Source of the DNA: a virus
Virus record (IMG/VR): IMGVR_UViG_3300035670_001460
Location: 1-20,526 of that record
Direction: 5' to 3' (one strand)
Length of the DNA: 20,526 nt
Part shown: in pieces, positions 1,260-18,919 of the stretch
How the letters are laid out: every line of letters begins with the position of its first letter
Numbering within the stretch: the first letter of the stretch is position 1
Made by a program: the position numbers and the translations under genes
The notes under the pieces: generated by a model
What the model was told of the DNA's origin: nothing
What the model saw: the letters and a program-made list of their open reading frames with translations, nothing else
Database searches by the model: none

Positions 1260-2297
1260 TTATTTGTTGAACAGCTTATCTGTCCATGTTTTTGGGGTTT
1301 TTTCTGTTATTATTTCTAATTCTAAGTGATAGTTAAATTGTCTTTTAGGACTATTTTTAATCCAAACTACGGTATCGCTAACAGTGTCTTCAGTTGTGTA
1401 TTTTGTAGTATACTTTAATATGTTTTTTGCTTTTTCTGTGCTTACCCAGGCATCTTTTACTTCCTGCGGCCTCTCTGGCACATGTATTATTTTAGTCTCT
1501 GCGTTAAAATATTTGTGAACTATGTCAGCTAGTTCTCGTATAGTTATTTCACTACCGTGGTCAGGACCTATGTTAAACACTTCACCACTTGTAATACTGT
1601 CTTTATTTGCATATAAAGTTTCGTAGGCATCTACGCAGTCTCTGACATGAGAAAAACTACGTTTTTGTGTGCCATCTCCATATATGTAAACAGGTTTTTC
1701 GTGCAACACTCTGTTTGCAAATATGCTCATAACATTTCTGAAAGGATCACTATAGCATTGGTGAGGCCCGCACACGTTATGTGGCACCATGTGAAATACC
1801 TTTATACCGTGTATAATGCTCATTAAGTTCAGATGTTCTTCAGCATGTCTCTTGGCTAGTCCATAAGGATCTACTGGCCTAGAATCTGTATTGCTTTCTA
1901 CAAAAGGAGGTACACCTTTTCCATACCTAGCCATAGAGCTAGTATTAATAAAAGTTTCTACTCCAGAAGCTATAGCAGCACTACAGACACTGGCTGTGCC
2001 TACATATATGTTTTCTACAATTACTTTAGGGCTAAATACACTTAAACCTTCATGTGCTAGTGCTGCACAATGAATAATTAATTCTGGCTTATAGAACTTA
2101 AAGATTTCAGTTAGTTTTTTATTATTAAGAATATCTTCGTTAAAAAATATAAACTCACTATTTTGGTCAGGCATATTAGTATTATAGCCGCCAATCAAAC
2201 TGTCTATACCTACAACTCTGAATCCTAATTTTAGGAATCTATAGCATAAATGACTTCCTATAAGTCCTGCACTTCCTGTTATTACTACTGTTTTCAT
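1260..2297 (-). CDS. NAD-dependent epimerase/dehydratase (extended SDR, sugar-nucleotide)
   Basis: A 345-residue protein of usual length for UDP-glucose 4-epimerase or dTDP-glucose dehydratase relatives. It shows the Rossmann dinucleotide motif GSAGLIG (residues 8-14), an acidic residue after the second strand (GIDSL), the CAA-type strand end at 77-79, the catalytic Ser region TSS (119-121) and the YxxxK pair Y145/K149 in YGLAK. Later motifs (GDGTQKRSFSHVRDC, VFNIG) are typical of nucleotide-sugar epimerases. The ribosome-binding site is AGGA about 6 bases before the ATG. It would interconvert a nucleotide-sugar for the adjacent glycosyltransferases. Substrate cannot be fixed from sequence. 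It is preceded by a terminator-like hairpin that may attenuate or insulate it. Confidence 0.9.
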   Translation of the reverse strand: MKTVVITGSAGLIGSHLCYRFLKLGFRVVGIDSLIGGYNTNMPDQNSEFIFFNEDILNNKKLTEIFKFYKPELIIHCAALAHEGLSVFSPKVIVENIYVGTASVCSAAIASGVETFINTSSMARYGKGVPPFVESNTDSRPVDPYGLAKRHAEEHLNLMSIIHGIKVFHMVPHNVCGPHQCYSDPFRNVMSIFANRVLHEKPVYIYGDGTQKRSFSHVRDCVDAYETLYANKDSITSGEVFNIGPDHGSEITIRELADIVHKYFNAETKIIHVPERPQEVKDAWVSTEKAKNILKYTTKYTTEDTVSDTVVWIKNSPKRQFNYHLELEIITEKTPKTWTDKLFNK

Positions 2298-2317
2298 TTT
2301 ATATCCTAAATGTAAAT

Positions 2318-2342
2318 AAAAAAGCCCTTAGCAATTAAGGGC
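2318..2342 (-). terminator. Rho-independent terminator after bS21-like gene
   Basis: On the minus strand, GCCCTTA (2342-2336), a 5-base loop and TAAGGGC (2330-2324) form a 7-bp stem followed directly by six T (2323-2318) and more A/T. It lies 52 bases after the stop of the bS21-like gene and just before the epimerase gene. It can end the 2902-2394 operon. Because a weak promoter may sit between it and the upstream stop, it might also act as an attenuator for the epimerase gene. Confidence 0.8.
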
Positions 2343-2356
2343 CTTATTATGTTTTA

Positions 2357-2385
2357 ATAATATATGCTAATGGGGTACCATGCAA
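2357..2385 (-). promoter_or_regulatory. Possible weak sigma70 promoter upstream of terminator
   Basis: On the minus strand TTGCAT (2385-2380), a 17-base spacer and TATTAT (2362-2357) resemble -35 and -10 boxes. The -35 matches consensus only in the first three bases. Transcription from it would start near 2350 and meet the 2342-2318 hairpin within about 35 bases before reaching the epimerase gene. Confidence 0.3.
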
Positions 2386-2393
2386 GAATTATT

Positions 2394-2654
2394 TTAATTT
2401 TTTTGCTTACCGCTTGATTTTTGATTTGTGTTTCTAATTGGCAATTCCTTAGATAATCTTTCGTTTATGATTCGAAGTTTCTTTTTAGTCCTAGCCGTAT
2501 TTCTAACCTTATCTTCTCTTTTTTTCTGTCCTTTACTTTTAAAGAACTCTTTTTCTTTTACTTCTTGGTAGTGACCTTCTTTGCTTAGTTTACGCATAAG
2601 AACCTTATAAGTTCTTAGCGGGTCTCCTCCATATTTTTTAGTTTTTATTTGCAT
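2394..2654 (-). CDS. Phage-encoded ribosomal protein bS21 homologue
   Basis: An 86-residue, strongly basic protein. Residues 9-40 follow the bS21 pattern: GGDPLRTYKVLMRKLSKEG corresponds to the family's conserved single-helix start with ALRRFKR..EKAG, then VKEKEFFKSKGQKKREDK corresponds to the REFYEKPTxxRKRK segment. The C-terminal tail of about 35 residues is longer than in typical bacterial bS21 (about 70 residues). bS21 binds the 30S platform next to the anti-Shine-Dalgarno end of 16S rRNA and affects start-site choice. Homologues are known in several marine and very large phages. AGGA lies about 8 bases before the ATG. Start and upstream stop overlap as TAATG, so it is co-translated with the glutaredoxin-like gene. 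Host-ribosome incorporation is inference. Confidence 0.8.
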   Translation of the reverse strand: MQIKTKKYGGDPLRTYKVLMRKLSKEGHYQEVKEKEFFKSKGQKKREDKVRNTARTKKKLRIINERLSKELPIRNTNQKSSGKQKN

Positions 2655-2902
2655 TAGTCTTTTCCTGCTCCAGAGTTTCTTGCCCAGTTTAGTATTATAT
2701 CTAAAGGTTGCTTACCTCGCATAGTATAACCTTCTTTTCCCGCTTTTGTAATTAAAAAGCTTGGTACTGTGTTTACAGGCACATTTCCATTGTAATCTGC
2801 GATGTCAACTACGGTAACTGAATATCCTTGAGATTCTAGATACTCCCTAGTCTTAGTCACATAACCACTAAGTTGTTCGTTTTGAACTATTAAAATTTCC
2901 AT
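2654..2902 (-). CDS. Glutaredoxin/thioredoxin-fold protein lacking cysteines
   Basis: An 82-residue protein with the glutaredoxin order: first strand MEILIVQN, a helix to residue 26, strand SVTVVDI, then TVPSFLI with the cis-proline motif (TVP, about residues 46-48), a final strand and helix. Where glutaredoxins carry CPYC, this protein has EQLSG; there is no cysteine anywhere. It therefore cannot do dithiol or monothiol redox chemistry and may serve as a binding fold. It is the first gene after a strong promoter, has a GGAGG ribosome-binding site about 6 bases before the ATG, and overlaps the bS21-like gene by one base. The fold call is from motif order only. Confidence 0.6.
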   Translation of the reverse strand: MEILIVQNEQLSGYVTKTREYLESQGYSVTVVDIADYNGNVPVNTVPSFLITKAGKEGYTMRGKQPLDIILNWARNSGAGKD

Positions 2903-2922
2903 ATTGCCTCCAATTTGTATTC

Positions 2923-2950
2923 AGTATACTATATATGTGCTTAGTGTCAA
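2923..2950 (-). promoter_or_regulatory. Strong sigma70 promoter for glutaredoxin-like/bS21-like operon
   Basis: Minus-strand TTGACA (2950-2945), 16-base spacer and TATACT (2928-2923). The -35 is perfect and the -10 matches five of six. Expected start is near 2916, 14 bases before the ATG, with GGAGG inside the leader. Confidence 0.8.
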
Positions 2951-2989
2951 TTTAAAAAATTTTATAAGTCTGTTGCTCTTACAAGTAAG

Positions 2990-3001
2990 AAGCATATGCT
3001 T
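2990..3001. repeat. 12-bp perfect palindrome in divergent promoter region
   Basis: AAGCATATGCTT reads the same on both strands. It lies between the outward-facing -35 boxes at 2945-2950 (minus) and 3024-3029 (plus). Next to it, TCTTACAAGTAAGA forms a short imperfect dyad. Position and symmetry suit an operator for a dimeric regulator acting on both promoters, but no regulator is identified. Confidence 0.4.
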
Positions 3002-3023
3002 TTATTTTTATCTTGCTCAGAGG

Positions 3024-3052
3024 TTGTTAATTTGATTATATATAGTTATACT
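3024..3052 (+). promoter_or_regulatory. Sigma70-like promoter for gene at 3071
   Basis: TTGTTA (3024-3029), 17-base spacer, TATACT (3047-3052). Expected start is about 3059, just before the AAGAGGAAAA ribosome-binding segment. It diverges from the 2923-2950 promoter. Confidence 0.65.
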
Positions 3053-3070
3053 TAACCAAAAAGAGGAAAA

Positions 3071-3400
3071 ATGAGCAAACTAACACCTTTTGATATTGAA
3101 TTTTTTGAAATGAGTGCAACGCTAGCTAGTGAAATAACTGAACAGAGTAAAAAAACTTTAGTAAAAACACTACTTAAGCTTAACAATCCTACTTATTTTT
3201 ATAAACACGTAAAACGCCATCCAATTGAGCTACACGGATTCAATGCTCATAGCACTATTAACCCAGTATTATCAGCTATCGGCTCAATGATTAATATTCT
3301 TAAAACAGAAAATAACTCAGAAATGCTTCAAAAAAAGCTGCAAACGGAGTTTGCATGGGCGTTTAACAATTATCCTAAATACACCTCAGTTAATTTGTAA
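3071..3400 (+). CDS. Hypothetical protein (109 aa)
   Basis: ATG start with AGAGG about 5 bases upstream and its own promoter. The protein is predicted to be mostly helical and mildly basic, with no signal peptide, membrane segment, metal site or recognisable catalytic motif. Residues 20-40 (TEQSKKTLVKTLLKL) form an amphipathic helix. It is transcribed alone: the following gene at 3465 has its own promoter. I do not recognise a family. Its place as the first gene of the rightward block and its divergent promoter suggest an early-expressed accessory protein, which is inference. Confidence 0.75.
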   Translation: MSKLTPFDIEFFEMSATLASEITEQSKKTLVKTLLKLNNPTYFYKHVKRHPIELHGFNAHSTINPVLSAIGSMINILKTENNSEMLQKKLQTEFAWAFNNYPKYTSVNL

Positions 3401-3409
3401 TTTTTTATT

Positions 3410-3438
3410 TTGACAAAAATGAGTGCTTCTCGTATACT
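3410..3438 (+). promoter_or_regulatory. Near-consensus sigma70 promoter
   Basis: TTGACA (3410-3415), exactly 17-base spacer, TATACT (3433-3438). Expected start is near 3445, leaving GGAG (3453-3456) and the ATG at 3465 in the transcript. The -10 box lies inside the first arm of the 15-bp inverted repeat 3426-3440/3478-3492. Confidence 0.85.
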
Positions 3439-3492
3439 GGTAGGGAGGGGCCGGAGATATCATAATGGAAGACTTATCCAGTATACGAGAAG
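3426..3492. repeat. 15-bp perfect inverted repeat spanning promoter and start codon
   Basis: CTTCTCGTATACTGG (3426-3440) and its exact complement (3478-3492) flank a 37-base loop. The left arm includes the -10 box. The loop holds the Shine-Dalgarno sequence and ATG. The right arm covers codons 5 to 10 of the gene. RNA started at this promoter would lack most or all of the left arm, so only read-through RNA from the upstream gene could form the full hairpin around the start codon. As DNA it could also bind a regulator at two sites. Confidence 0.75.
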
Positions 3493-3791
3493 AGATACGC
3501 CAGTTACATGAGCGTTCTCAAAATACCAAAACTGAAGTAAAAGTACTTCAGACAAAATTTGATGAAAGACACATAGCACTAATGGAGAAGATGGAAAAGC
3601 TGGCCACAGACGTAGAGCGCTTAAACTCTAGATTTGACTCCGAAATGGGTTCTCTTCTTGAAAAAATAGATCAGTTAAATCAGCTAGCAAATCAGGGTAA
3701 GACTAGCTTAAGAACATTATGGTTTATTGGAGGCTTATTTGCAGCAACTGGAGCTGCTCTAGCAACATGGTCAGACTTATTATTCAAATAA
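3465..3791 (+). CDS. Coiled-coil protein with C-terminal membrane anchor (XhlA-like)
   Basis: A 108-residue protein. Residues 1-75 form a long heptad-like coiled coil (EEIRQLHERSQ, VLQTKFDERH, MEKLATDVERLNSRF). Residues about 84-104 (LWFIGGLFAATGAALATW) are one hydrophobic segment close to the C-terminus. This tail-anchored layout is that of the XhlA/haemolysin family found next to holins, and of other phage inner-membrane proteins. No holin or lysis gene is adjacent here, so a lysis role is not shown. GGAG lies 8 bases before the ATG. The gene has its own strong promoter and the unusual inverted repeat over its start region. Confidence 0.7.
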   Translation: MEDLSSIREEIRQLHERSQNTKTEVKVLQTKFDERHIALMEKMEKLATDVERLNSRFDSEMGSLLEKIDQLNQLANQGKTSLRTLWFIGGLFAATGAALATWSDLLFK

Positions 3792-8084: not shown

Positions 8085-9101
8085 ATGACTGAATACTTTA
8101 ATAAAACTAATCGTTCTTGGCGCATTTCTCAATGTTGCCAGTTTTTTGACCCAAAACTTGTAAAAACTTACAATGTTGGTACGACTACTAAAACTACTGC
8201 ACTAGGCCCTAGCGGAAAACAAAAAGTGCAAGAAAAAGCCCTAGCAAACTTAGATAAACTGTATAAAACTTTGTCTGAGTATTTTGCTAAACAACCAGTA
8301 AATCTACGTAGTTTTCGTATTAGCACCACTCTTCTTCCAGTATTTACTGTCGAAGAAGCTAAGCCTTGGTATCAAGAAATTGATGACAAAATTCGTTTAA
8401 AACTAGAACGAATTGGTAAAGTAGCTAAAGACAATGAAATCAGACTGTCTATGCATCCCGGTCAGTATACGGTTCTAGCGTCTAATAATTCAGACGTAGT
8501 TAAGAACTCAATTGAAGATATTGAATATCATTCAATGATTGGCAGGTATATGGGTATTGAGCCAAGAGAGTTTGTAGTAAACATTCACCTGCAAGGCGTG
8601 TATAAAGGTACTCGTGAAGAAGGTATTAATCGCTTTGCCACAAACTTTCAATATCTAAGTGATTATGCTCAGCAATGTCTAGCTGTAGAAAACGAAGATA
8701 AGCCTAACGGCTATGATATCGAACATGTACTAGACCTTTGTAGTCGTATTCCTACTCGTGCAACTTTCGATATTCACCATTACGATTGTTGGGGGCGTAA
8801 ACAGCGACCCTACCCTACTGTAAATCTCAAAGAGTTTAGCAATGCCGTAAAGACTTGGGGCAGTATTAGACCACTATTTCATATTAGTCATACTAGGCAA
8901 GAAAATGGTGTCGATGTACCTAAAGCTTTAGAGCATAGTGAAATTCTGCATGACCTTGACAGGCTAGCAGTAATGGTACCTATGCTACAATATGCTGACT
9001 TCGATATCGAAGCAAAAAATAAAGAAGTAGCAGTTAATCATTGTTATAACTTCATAAAAGAAGAAGAAATGTATGCTGGAGAGCCTTTGCAGGCTCTCTA
9101 A
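8085..9101 (+). CDS. uvsE: UV-damage endonuclease (UvdE/UvsE-like)
   Basis: A 338-residue protein of usual length for the bacterial UvsE family, which nicks DNA 5' of UV photoproducts and other lesions and starts excision repair. Expected TIM-barrel metal ligands are visible: H124 in RLSMHPGQYTVL (the family signature), H149 in IEYHSMIG, H168 in VVNIHLQG, E202 in AVENEDK, D229, H231 and H232 in FDIHHYD, and a later FHISHTR. RISTTLLP near residue 80 and LGPSGKQKVQEKALANL also fit the family. It has its own promoter. Arginine codons here are mostly CGT, unlike the AGA-rich glycosyltransferase genes, which may mark separate origin or higher expression. For a sunlit-water phage, repair of UV damage is a plausible benefit. 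Confidence 0.92.
   Translation: MTEYFNKTNRSWRISQCCQFFDPKLVKTYNVGTTTKTTALGPSGKQKVQEKALANLDKLYKTLSEYFAKQPVNLRSFRISTTLLPVFTVEEAKPWYQEIDDKIRLKLERIGKVAKDNEIRLSMHPGQYTVLASNNSDVVKNSIEDIEYHSMIGRYMGIEPREFVVNIHLQGVYKGTREEGINRFATNFQYLSDYAQQCLAVENEDKPNGYDIEHVLDLCSRIPTRATFDIHHYDCWGRKQRPYPTVNLKEFSNAVKTWGSIRPLFHISHTRQENGVDVPKALEHSEILHDLDRLAVMVPMLQYADFDIEAKNKEVAVNHCYNFIKEEEMYAGEPLQAL
9079..9098 (+). other. Hairpin in last codons of UV-endonuclease gene
   Basis: GAGAGCCT (9079-9086), loop TTGC, AGGCTCTC (9091-9098): an 8-bp perfect stem that ends at the TAA stop. No T-run follows, so it is not a standard terminator. It may protect or process the mRNA between the two genes. Confidence 0.6.
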
Positions 9102-14569: not shown

Positions 14570-14618
14570 TCCATTTTTAAATAAATTTTTTGTTGCATCT
14601 GGCTCTCGAATCACGTAA

Positions 14619-14630
14619 TGTATATATACA
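14619..14630. repeat. 12-bp palindrome upstream of putative DNA-binding gene
   Basis: TGTATATATACA is a perfect palindrome 25 bases before the GTG start of the next gene. It may be an operator, perhaps autoregulatory, or part of an AT-rich promoter; no convincing -35/-10 pair with 17-base spacing was found here. Confidence 0.35.
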
Positions 14631-14655
14631 CAAAACCTTATGGAGTTTTAAAACA

Positions 14656-14976
14656 GTGTCAGAAACTCAACAAAATTACACCGCAGAACAAACCGCACAA
14701 CTACTATCTCTATATGAACAGCTAGGTACTGAAGGCATTGATGAAATTGCTGAGCAACTAAACAAGCCTGTAAGGTCTATCCGCTCTAAACTTGTTAAGG
14801 AAGGCGTATACGTGCCTGCACCTAAGCAAGATAACAAAAAGAACGGACCTAGTAAGAAAGAGCTTCTAAATACGCTAGAGAGCCTTGTAGGATTTGACAC
14901 TACAGGCTTTAGCGGTTCTACCAAACAGGTACTTGCTGACCTGATTGTATATCTAGACAAAAATCACACTAAGTAA
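14656..14976 (+). CDS. Putative DNA-binding protein with N-terminal helix-turn-helix (106 aa)
   Basis: Start chosen as GTG 14656 with GGAG about 10 bases upstream; a longer frame from TTG 14590 lies over the palindrome and lacks a ribosome-binding site. Residues 7-45 (YTAEQTAQLLSLYEQLG, then IDEIAEQLNKPVRSIRSKL) fit a Myb/SANT-like or MarR-like three-helix unit, with the recognition helix at PVRSIRSKLVKEGVY. Similar proteins are frequent in T4-like phages of marine hosts. The middle is a Lys/Asn/Pro linker. The C-terminus is helical (LADLIVYLDKN). Function: probable transcription or DNA-binding factor, target unknown. Confidence 0.6.
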   Translation: MSETQQNYTAEQTAQLLSLYEQLGTEGIDEIAEQLNKPVRSIRSKLVKEGVYVPAPKQDNKKNGPSKKELLNTLESLVGFDTTGFSGSTKQVLADLIVYLDKNHTK

Positions 14977-14989
14977 TTAGCGTGACAGG

Positions 14990-15300
14990 TAAGGCTCTTA
15001 ATAAGAAGAAATCATATTTGTCTGCTATGTCAGAAGAATGAGATGAGCCATAAAGAAGAGCGGTGGCGGGGCTGCTTCTTTACCAATAAATCCTCTTCAA
15101 AAGACTATTGTCTGAAGTCGGGGAGCCTGTTGTGAGTGGTACAGGCTAACAAAAAAACTCTCTGAGGGCTTGTGAATTTAACCTCAGCACACAACCAAAT
15201 TCACCGATACGAAGTCAATCGCATATAAGTCCTAGTGTGCATTAGGCATGGCTTCACTTAAGGCGTGTGGTTATTGCTAATCACACGCCTTAAATTTTCT
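14990..15300 (+). ncRNA. Candidate structured non-coding RNA with possible pseudoknot
   Basis: The 380-base gap between genes at 14976 and 15357 has no good ORF but many pairings. GGCTC/GAGCC (14993-14997/15045-15049); an 8-bp stem TAAAGAAG/CTTCTTTA (15051-15058/15075-15082); CTTCA/TGAAG with GAC/GTC (15095-15117); AGCCTGT/ACAGGCT (15124-15130/15141-15147); an H-type pair CTGAGG/CCTCAG (15162-15167/15182-15187) interleaved with GTGAATTT/AAATTCAC (15172-15179/15197-15204); CCTAGT/ATTAGG (15231-15246); and a terminator. No promoter was found directly upstream, so it may be the 3' part of the 14656 transcript. It shows no tmRNA or RNase P hallmarks that I recognise. Pairing is from sequence only. 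Confidence 0.45.
15258..15299 (+). terminator. Rho-independent terminator, 12-bp stem
   Basis: TTAAGGCGTGTG (15258-15269), a 12-base loop, CACACGCCTTAA (15282-15293), then TTTTCT. The T-run is modest but the stem is perfect. It separates the structured region from the promoter at 15302. Confidence 0.75.
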
Positions 15301-15301
15301 C

Positions 15302-15330
15302 TTGCACTCAGGTTATTTTCAGCGTATATT
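15302..15330 (+). promoter_or_regulatory. Sigma70-like promoter for SWIM-protein gene
   Basis: TTGCAC (15302-15307), 17-base spacer, TATATT (15325-15330). Start expected near 15337. The spacer holds the left arm of an inverted repeat that pairs with the ribosome-binding site. Confidence 0.75.
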
Positions 15331-15356: not shown

Positions 15357-15599
15357 ATGTATACCGTTAAGAAAAAGTTTCCAGATGTGTACGAAGTGGC
15401 TAACTTCGGAGACCGTAAAGACCCAGATGCAGTTTATACTGTTCGTAAGGCTAAGTGCAGCTGTCCTGCTGCTTGGGGTAAGCGTTCTTGTAAACACGTA
15501 AGCATTGTAAACCGATTCAAAACGCTCAAAGAAGGTGCCTGGTGGTTTGAGATTGTAGACAATGAAGTTTTCTCCCACCGTATCCAAGCGTTCGAATGA
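15357..15599 (+). CDS. SWIM-type zinc-finger protein (80 aa)
   Basis: An 80-residue protein with CSCPAAWGKRSCKHVSIVNRF: the SWIM pattern CxC...CxH (C34, C36, C46, H48), a zinc-binding module that in larger proteins binds DNA or proteins. Before it, TVKKKFPDVYEVANFGDRK and VYTVRKAK form the usual N-terminal strands of the module; after it lie Trp-rich residues GAWWFEIVDNE. It has a GAGGAG ribosome-binding site and its own promoter. Free-standing SWIM proteins of this size occur in phages; role not known. Confidence 0.75.
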   Translation: MYTVKKKFPDVYEVANFGDRKDPDAVYTVRKAKCSCPAAWGKRSCKHVSIVNRFKTLKEGAWWFEIVDNEVFSHRIQAFE

Positions 15600-15649: not shown

Positions 15650-15726
<77 letters not shown>

Positions 15727-16195: not shown

Positions 16196-16831
16196 ATGCA
16201 CTTAATAGATTTTCTTAGTGTACACTGCCGTGATTTGCCTCTTGCAAAAGAAGGTATAACTTTAGATTCTTTAGTACAGGCGCTACTTACTAGCGGTGAG
16301 GTAAGTTCTAATCTATCTATATCTAATTCTAAATGGGTTAGAATTACTAAACAATGGTTTCCAGACAAACCTCCTCGTCAAAGAATACTGACTTATCTTC
16401 TACTGAAGAATAATGTCTATTATTGTAATAAGTGTAATTTAATCTTACCTTTAGATAGTTTCAATATTAAAAATACATGTACAAAAGGTATTGCTAATTA
16501 TTGTAAGGATTGTCATAATAAAACTCAACAATCTTATTACTATAATAACTCTGAAGCTCAAGTATCCAGAGTTAGAAAAAGAGATAGAAGTTTAGACAGG
16601 TCTTTATCTTCAGAAGAAATATATTTTATATTTTGTAGAGATAAGCACAAATGTGTATTTTGTGGGTACACTAATCAAGACTACAATATTGACTATGGGG
16701 AAAATCTCAGTTTAGACCACATAATACCAGTATCTAAGGGCGGCCTCACTACAGTAGATAATATACAACTGTTATGTAGGTCTTGTAACTCTAAGAAGTC
16801 TAACAGAATCATAACGGATACTATTATATGA
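16196..16831 (+). CDS. HNH endonuclease, free-standing homing-type
   Basis: A 211-residue protein. The C-terminus has the HNH block: CVFCGY (C153, C156), then LSLDHIIPVSKGG (D174, H175), DNIQLLCRSCNSKKSN (N189, C194, C197, N198), with four Cys holding structural zinc. Upstream is a second zinc ribbon, CNKC (C77, C80) and YCKDC (C103, C106), and a Ser-rich N-terminal region with LDSLVQALLTSGEVSS. Composition is AT-rich with AGA codons. The gene starts eight bases after a tRNA and its stop overlaps the next start (ATGA), suggesting recent insertion into a tRNA cluster. The target site is unknown. Confidence 0.88.
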   Translation: MHLIDFLSVHCRDLPLAKEGITLDSLVQALLTSGEVSSNLSISNSKWVRITKQWFPDKPPRQRILTYLLLKNNVYYCNKCNLILPLDSFNIKNTCTKGIANYCKDCHNKTQQSYYYNNSEAQVSRVRKRDRSLDRSLSSEEIYFIFCRDKHKCVFCGYTNQDYNIDYGENLSLDHIIPVSKGGLTTVDNIQLLCRSCNSKKSNRIITDTII

Positions 16832-17399: not shown

Positions 17400-17624
17400 A
17401 TATACACCGCCTGCGGGTAATAGCTAGCGCTTTTGTCTAGCCGGGGTATTTTACCGTGTGCATAGCGGTAAATAGAGTGTAGCTTTTGAAGCACTATAGC
17501 TGCTCTTGACTGTGAATTAACACATGATTAGTAAGTGTTGCAACGGGTATGCTGTCCGTCGGTATACACAGAGATAGTGCTGGCTGCGTAGCGGCTAGTA
17601 TAGGGCGGACCAAATAAACATATT
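17400..17624 (+). other. 225-base inter-tRNA spacer with hairpins, no clear gene
   Basis: No ORF of good quality and no promoter pair. Hairpins: GCTAG/CTAGC (17423-17441), TTTACCG/CGGTAAA (17450-17472), imperfect AGTG/CACT (17477-17495), ACGG/CCGT (17543-17559). The 3' end reads GGCGGACCAAAT, tRNA-3'-end-like, but no matching tRNA could be folded. It may hold a small RNA or a decayed tRNA. Confidence 0.3.
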
Positions 17625-18847: not shown

Positions 18848-18919
18848 GGGCTTGTCCATCGGGATGGGGGCTTCCCTTGCACGGAAGTTATGCGGGTTCG
18901 ACTCCCGACAGGTCCACCA
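18848..18919 (+). tRNA. tRNA-Ala (anticodon UGC), shortened D-arm
   Basis: Acceptor GGGCTTG pairs with CAGGTCC (two G-U-type pairs), discriminator A, encoded CCA. Anticodon stem CTTCC/GGAAG with loop CTTGCAC gives UGC, reading GCA. T-loop TTCGACT. The D-region folds only as CCAT/ATGG with a 4-base loop CGGG, much shorter than usual. Total length is 72 with CCA. Confidence 0.75.

Follow-up and report, generated by a model that had tools for sequence, protein, structure and literature searches.

Next to a tRNA cluster in the virus contig IMGVR_UViG_3300035670_001460 lies a stretch of about 300 nt in which no gene is found, and the question it raises is whether this is ordinary spacer, part of a neighboring transcript or an RNA in its own right. 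The whole of this 20.5-kb contig (20,526 nt) was analyzed and is referred to here as the window. A sequence-only reading had proposed a structured phage RNA in a GOLLD-like setting that belongs to no recognized class, a proposal that is now supported by covariation and by the absence of any Rfam match.

The spacer and its genomic setting

The element occupies positions 14977-15300 of the plus strand, from the stop codon of the gene on its 5' side to the promoter-like site at 15302 on its 3' side, and comprises a variable 5' domain, a conserved core and an intrinsic terminator. The spacer is gene-free, as had been stated: a six-frame check of 14977-15299 revealed no noteworthy open frame and none open throughout. 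The sequence-only reading had also named a hidden conserved reading frame as a result that would speak against an RNA, and no frame common to the relatives runs across the element. The upstream gene (14653-14976, plus strand), which was judged complete by comparison with relatives and has orthologues in the loci L017, L095 and L080, encodes a small HTH-type DNA-binding protein with weak profile matches (PHROG 1725, E 3.8e-5; Sigma70_r4_2, E 0.008, below the cut-off). A group I intron was considered and rejected, there being no Rfam match and the upstream gene being complete, not interrupted. The downstream gene (15357-15599, plus strand) encodes an 80-aa CxC...CxxH protein that is zinc-finger-like by eye and gave no match in the profile search. 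The first tRNA gene of the array, tRNA-Arg(TCT), follows at 15650-15726 on the plus strand (ARAGORN/Rfam), which agrees with the position beside a tRNA cluster that had been pointed out.

Three other features of the array region were noted. An HNH endonuclease ORF (16196-16831) lies between tRNA-Met and the 16828 gene and is absent there in a sister contig; a homing endonuclease has probably inserted into the array here. A tRNA-Ala at 18848-18919 has a low score (29.4 bits), while the tRNA-Ala found beside tRNA-Trp in the sister is missing from the window; the window copy may be degenerate. Finally, the 225 gene-free nt between tRNA-Pro and tRNA-Leu (17400-17624) form a single long fold (-69 kcal/mol), are 73% identical in the sister and have a partial match in L121, and are possibly a second structured RNA.

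When taken alone, the single sequence provides weak evidence of non-randomness. The RNA folding energy of the window element has a z-score of -2.63 with the terminator and of -0.73 without it, on either strand, and the latter value is unremarkable; the pairing density that had been offered as a sign of something beyond chance is thus a weak one. Pseudoknots of at least 14 perfect pairs arose in 6 of 1500 dinucleotide shuffles (0.4%), and two other sites of the 20.5-kb window likewise score at least 14 perfect pseudoknot pairs. An ordinary spacer, with chance helices and a terminator, would be in line with a single-sequence fold that is unremarkable without its terminator. This explanation is, however, already refuted by the relatives, through the reciprocal model matches and controlled covariation described below, and we assign it practically no weight. 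The structured RNA reading is settled because relatives were compared, and not by single-sequence statistics; single-genome folding energies overlook such RNAs, which synteny and covariation detect.

Relatives and the phages that carry them

The sister contig, IMGVR_UViG_3300016476_000584 (G001), is 99.6% identical to the window at the element, inside a block of 98-100% identity. Being nearly identical, it is uninformative for covariation except at 15212, where the sole change in the element (A to G) keeps helix P5 as a G-U pair. Using the UvdE-type nuclease at 8085 as query, we obtained 80 IMG/VR loci (52-95% identity), some of which share synteny with a large part of the window. A homologous element was found in L017, L095 and L080/L096, in the spacer flanked by their 14653 and 15357 orthologues, whose proteins are 46-72% identical to those of the window; L080/L096 contain only the core.

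Covariance model R1, built from L017, L095 and L080 only, detected the window at 86.3 bits (E 1.4e-19) and a second branch (L102-L108 and L014) at 42-50 bits. Conversely, model R2, built only from the second branch, including L121, and with the window and its branch left out, gave the window a score of 54.1 bits (E 1.2e-11 in 1.07 Mb); L017, L080 and L095 scored 58-70 bits. As covariance-model E-values are rough, we relied on the gap between true and false scores: the best false match of the models, in coding DNA, reached 31 bits, and only matches above ~40 bits were trusted. Matches rejected as false were one at L022 1673 (31 bits), inside a glycosylase-like ORF (Fpg by eye), and weak ones in L035 and L032 that are seemingly coding. 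L006 and L007 have one gene in common with the window locus only, and their spacer, read by eye, is without the element.

A sequence descriptor retrieved 12 stretches in all of IMG/VR, every one on contigs of this phage group, and no match in 84,980 prokaryote species genomes. A looser pattern gave 18 further loci outside the group, 0 of 18 passing the model. With the element as query, blastn returned nothing meaningful from 50,697 phage records, and a search of bacterial genome contigs with a marker protein turned up no relative. Exact patterns may miss divergent members and, therefore, the true range is possibly wider. When antisense, terminator-only and weak partial matches are left out, the RNA is present in a single copy per contig searched.

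The RNA family occurs in one group of tailed phages, all uncultured, which have tRNA arrays and a permuted tmRNA. In every relative with its surroundings listed, a tRNA-Arg gene lies at most ~3 kb from the RNA, 3' or 5' of it. The immediate neighbors differ by branch. Upstream, the HTH gene of the window branch is replaced in the second branch by a PMM-like HAD protein; downstream, orthologues of the 15357 gene follow the RNA immediately in the window branch only, whereas the second branch has a T7 gp0.7-kinase-like gene (PHROG 15752, E 6e-16). In L114, the protein-kinase-like gene of PHROG 15752 that lies directly downstream in this branch is ~180 bases 3' of the RNA motif. From its description, we take PHROG 15752 to be the T7 gp0.7 family; the wording of the entry is that a relative of the kinase modulates RNase III and RNase E.

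Further RNA-related features were observed in these phages. The sister has a permuted (two-piece) tmRNA (L010:3400-3740, minus strand; Rfam RF04321, 99.9 bits) that overlaps a match to the alphaproteobacterial tmRNA model RF01849 (60.6 bits), and ARAGORN gave permuted tmRNA matches in L018, L020, L025, L032, L033, L040 and L041, with tags mostly of the ANDN type; these matches predict that the phages of the group encode a trans-translation RNA of their own. In the window, neither ARAGORN nor Rfam reported a tmRNA. Locus L011 encodes a DUF7788/DUF2828 protein (2284-3720, minus strand), widespread in large phages and labeled 'RNA-binding protein' in the annotation of some Vibrio and Cronobacter phages, and also contains two tRNA-like Rfam matches without an ARAGORN call (L011:4332-4445 and L011:12087-12159), one of them 114 nt long.

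Core fold and covariation

The comparisons show the predicted core (15120-15298, plus strand, from models R1 and R2) to consist of two tandem H-type pseudoknots, a P5/P6 domain with a loop-loop contact and a terminator. From 5' to 3', the order is pseudoknot 1, an A-rich linker, pseudoknot 2, P5 around P6 and the terminator, all on the plus strand. In pseudoknot 1 (15125-15162), the stem pairs GCCTGT (15125-15130) with ACAGGC (15141-15146), and the loop helix pairs GTGAGT (15132-15137) with ACTCTC (15157-15162), with one T-T mismatch. Across the family, the stem reads CCTG/CAGG or CTGG/CCAG, while the loop helix is elsewhere AACAGT/ACTGTT, AAAGGT/ACCTTT, AGTGAT/ATCACT, ATAGTC/GACTAT or GTAAAG/CTTTAC. 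The A-rich linker that spans pseudoknot 1 (15147-15156; TAACAAAAAA in the window, GTAAACNANAA in relatives) is kept in all members.

Pseudoknot 2 (15162-15204) is the one already proposed, and it was described exactly, as a 6-bp helix (CTGAGG 15162-15167 with CCTCAG 15182-15187) interleaved with an 8-bp helix (GTGAATTT 15172-15179 with AAATTCAC 15197-15204), with loops of 4, 2 and 9 bases. In relatives, it reads TAGG/CCTA with CTAAAC/GTTTAG or TTAAAC/GTTTAA. A frameshift signal (AAAAAAAC 5' of pseudoknot 2) was considered and rejected, as no open reading frame crosses it and the heptamer is not conserved. Further downstream, P5 (15211-15255; GAAGTC 15211-15216 with GGCTTC 15250-15255), which covaries, encloses P6 (CCTAG 15231-15235 with TTAGG 15242-15246), and this domain has the letters AAGTCC...GGC. 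In a third contact (15187-15240), the long loop of pseudoknot 2 (GCACA 15187-15191) pairs with the P6 loop (TGTGC 15236-15240). The two loops are complementary in 9 of 9 sequences and the contact covaries between branches: it is GCACA/TGTGC in the window branch (with one mismatch in L017), TCCGA/TCGGA in L105 and L108 (and, with one mismatch, in L103), and CCCGA/TCGGG in L014 and L121. The intrinsic terminator (15258-15293) ends the RNA in all members; its presence had been foreseen correctly, although its stem has 16 pairs and not the 12 that had been given. The pseudoknot-type contacts of the first-hairpin loop and of the P6 loop were both absent from the sequence-only reading.

As the MAFFT and covariance-model alignments shift the loop helices by 1-2 bases between branches, pairs were counted on hand-assigned arms, and these counts were rechecked by searches with a free register. 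Chimeras of the 5' arm from one sequence and the 3' arm from another served as the control. For the loop helix of pseudoknot 1, P5, P6 and the third contact, own arms gave 92-100% paired cells, as compared to 53-64% for chimeras. In the loop helix of pseudoknot 1, 6 of 6 columns covary (98% paired for own arms versus 56% for chimeras), and in P5, which is represented by nine distinct arm pairs, 5 of 5 columns do so. The sequence of pseudoknot 2 varies less: S2 pairs at 100% versus 75% for chimeras, while S1 is the weakest helix (83% versus 76%), with mismatches in L095, L108 and L121. Free-register permutation, with relatedness ignored, yielded p values of 0.0002 for pseudoknot 1, 0.00075 for P5 and 0.001 for the third contact. 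For the latter, own sequences form 6.1 bp versus 3.1 bp in between-branch chimeras, and the observed sum was reached in 0 of 5000 shuffles; a looser test with the whole P6 hairpin gave p 0.06, relatedness again being ignored. It should be noted that neither R1 nor R2 was built with the loop helix of pseudoknot 1, S1 of pseudoknot 2 or the third contact. The check on covariation that the sequence-only reading had called for is thus positive, with paired strands covarying in the pseudoknot and in other core helices across relatives. The fold is kept across nine distinct sequences though almost all letters differ, and this pattern of substitution indicates that the fold of the core is under selection.

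The 5' domain (14993-15117, plus strand) is present in the window, the sister, L017 and L095, and is absent from L080/L096 and the second branch. It contains P1 (GGCTC 14993-14997 with GAGCC 15045-15049), P2 with a G-rich loop (TAAAGAAG 15051-15058 with CTTCTTTA 15075-15082) and P4 (CTTCA 15095-15099 with TGAAG 15113-15117), and its changes are compensatory in a set of three distinct sequences.

Transcription, probable role and comparison with known RNAs

A promoter-like site, TTGCAT-17-TAATGT (14593-14621, plus strand), precedes the 14653 gene; it was recognized by eye and missed by automatic scans, and L017 and L095 have TTGCCA-17-TATAGT in its position. It is probably the start of the RNA-bearing transcript. 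Past the terminator, a second putative promoter for the 15357 gene, TTGCAC-17-TATATT (15302-15330, plus strand), recurs in the same place and with the same 17-base spacing in L017, L095 and L080; TTGC-17-TATATT-like sites also precede several genes on the window strand. In most members, no promoter was recognized between the upstream gene and the RNA; L121 has a TTGC-17-TATATT-type site immediately 5' of the RNA. With one site before the 14653-like gene and another after the terminator, the RNA probably makes up the 3' portion of the 14653 transcript, separate from 15357 and, in the window branch, not the leader of the next gene.

Such an RNA could be a 3'-UTR module that shields the upstream mRNA from 3' exonucleases. 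Pseudoknots can block exonucleases, and the core begins ~14-20 bases past the upstream stop codon in several members. We nonetheless consider this unlikely, as the RNA is single-copy per contig, the upstream genes differ, the promoter-like site of L121 falls between gene and RNA, and a terminator hairpin by itself would usually suffice.

The main rival, which we regard as possible but clearly not probable, is a cis-acting, riboswitch-like attenuator, in which the knotted domain would sense a ligand or protein and control terminator read-through into the downstream gene. Every member has an aptamer-like compact fold followed by an intrinsic terminator, as in riboswitches of the H-type pseudoknot kind. 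This rival stands because of the second branch, where the gp0.7-kinase-like gene starts only ~20-30 bases past the terminator, too close for a promoter to fit in between. However, the element matches no Rfam riboswitch; the downstream gene family varies by branch (15357-like or gp0.7-kinase-like), so that a conserved association with one kind of gene is not seen; a conserved promoter-like site lies between terminator and gene in the window branch; and the terminator stem shares no strand with the core helices.

The reading that we prefer, with a probability of roughly 60%, is that of a dedicated, stable structured noncoding RNA acting in trans as a scaffold or decoy for a factor of translation or RNA decay. 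Syntenic homologues, divergent members in other contexts and reciprocal model detection all argue for a dedicated RNA. The appearance of a free-standing RNA gene heading the tRNA array comes from the neighbors that differ by branch and from the promoter-like site of L121, and a stable, trans-acting role is suggested because the RNA persists, once per contig, while its neighbors change. In the window phage, the RNA would be transcribed with the 14653 gene, end at its own terminator, possibly be trimmed at its 5' end, and accumulate as a compact, nuclease-resistant molecule made together with the tRNA cassette. It may then bind a factor of host or phage origin; as evidence from the neighborhood, the tRNA array, the permuted tmRNA and the kinase point to translation or RNA decay. 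More speculatively, and rather doubtfully, the contact between loop and hairpin might also form between molecules and give oligomers, in the manner of GOLLD or ROOL on a smaller scale, or the RNA might bind the ribosome or RNase E and thus spare phage tRNAs and mRNAs.

The Rfam search for which the sequence-only reading had asked (release 15) gave no family match for the element: up to E 10, there was no meaningful match for the window element, L017 or L080, and none to the GOLLD, ROOL, HDV-like/theta or pistol models. tmRNA, RNase P, group I intron and 6S RNA were rejected as identities, as neither Rfam nor ARAGORN gave a match and inspection by eye revealed no motifs. Within open-licence PubMed Central papers and Rfam release 15, this is a new, previously undescribed RNA family, of which the window element would be the founding locus.

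A self-cleaving ribozyme processing the tRNA-array transcript, as HDV-like theta ribozymes or pistol might, is very improbable. Pseudoknot 1 has an A-rich linker reminiscent of pistol. Theta ribozymes are, like the element, small pseudoknotted phage RNAs that occur near tRNAs (PMC10879173). Nonetheless, no Rfam ribozyme family matches even at E 10, and the nested double pseudoknot of the HDV type is absent, the element having two sequential H-type pseudoknots and another helix order. Cleavage by theta ribozymes takes place at the 3' end of the tRNA, whereas the element ends in a terminator ~350 nt upstream of the first tRNA, from which a gene also separates it; lying upstream and behind a terminator, it is poorly placed for such cleavage. 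tmRNA is a chain of pseudoknots with A-rich linkers, and the permuted tmRNA, encoded by the same phage group, thus resembles the element in its pseudoknot chain and linker. The element, however, is without a tRNA-like domain or tag frame, and the permuted tmRNA of the sister sits elsewhere.

The broad kind to which the element belongs is already known, namely the structured phage RNAs near tRNA islands, GOLLD and ROOL, which are unexplained. Like them, the element is phage-encoded and close to a tRNA island (the array from 15650, and likewise in relatives). Many GOLLD members exceed 800 nt; ROOL, which contains several pseudoknots, is encoded by phages or prophages close to tRNA islands, and one example has 659 nt (PMC12286853). 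In contrast, the element measures ~180-320 nt, and we saw no helix correspondence with GOLLD and no sequence or helix correspondence with ROOL. The phages that carry it are known only from metagenomes and have large tRNA sets and a permuted tmRNA. With three covarying pseudoknot-type contacts in ~140 nt, the family presents a well-defined, testable fold, and a much smaller member of the GOLLD/ROOL-like kind would ease studies of structure and oligomerization and searches for partners.
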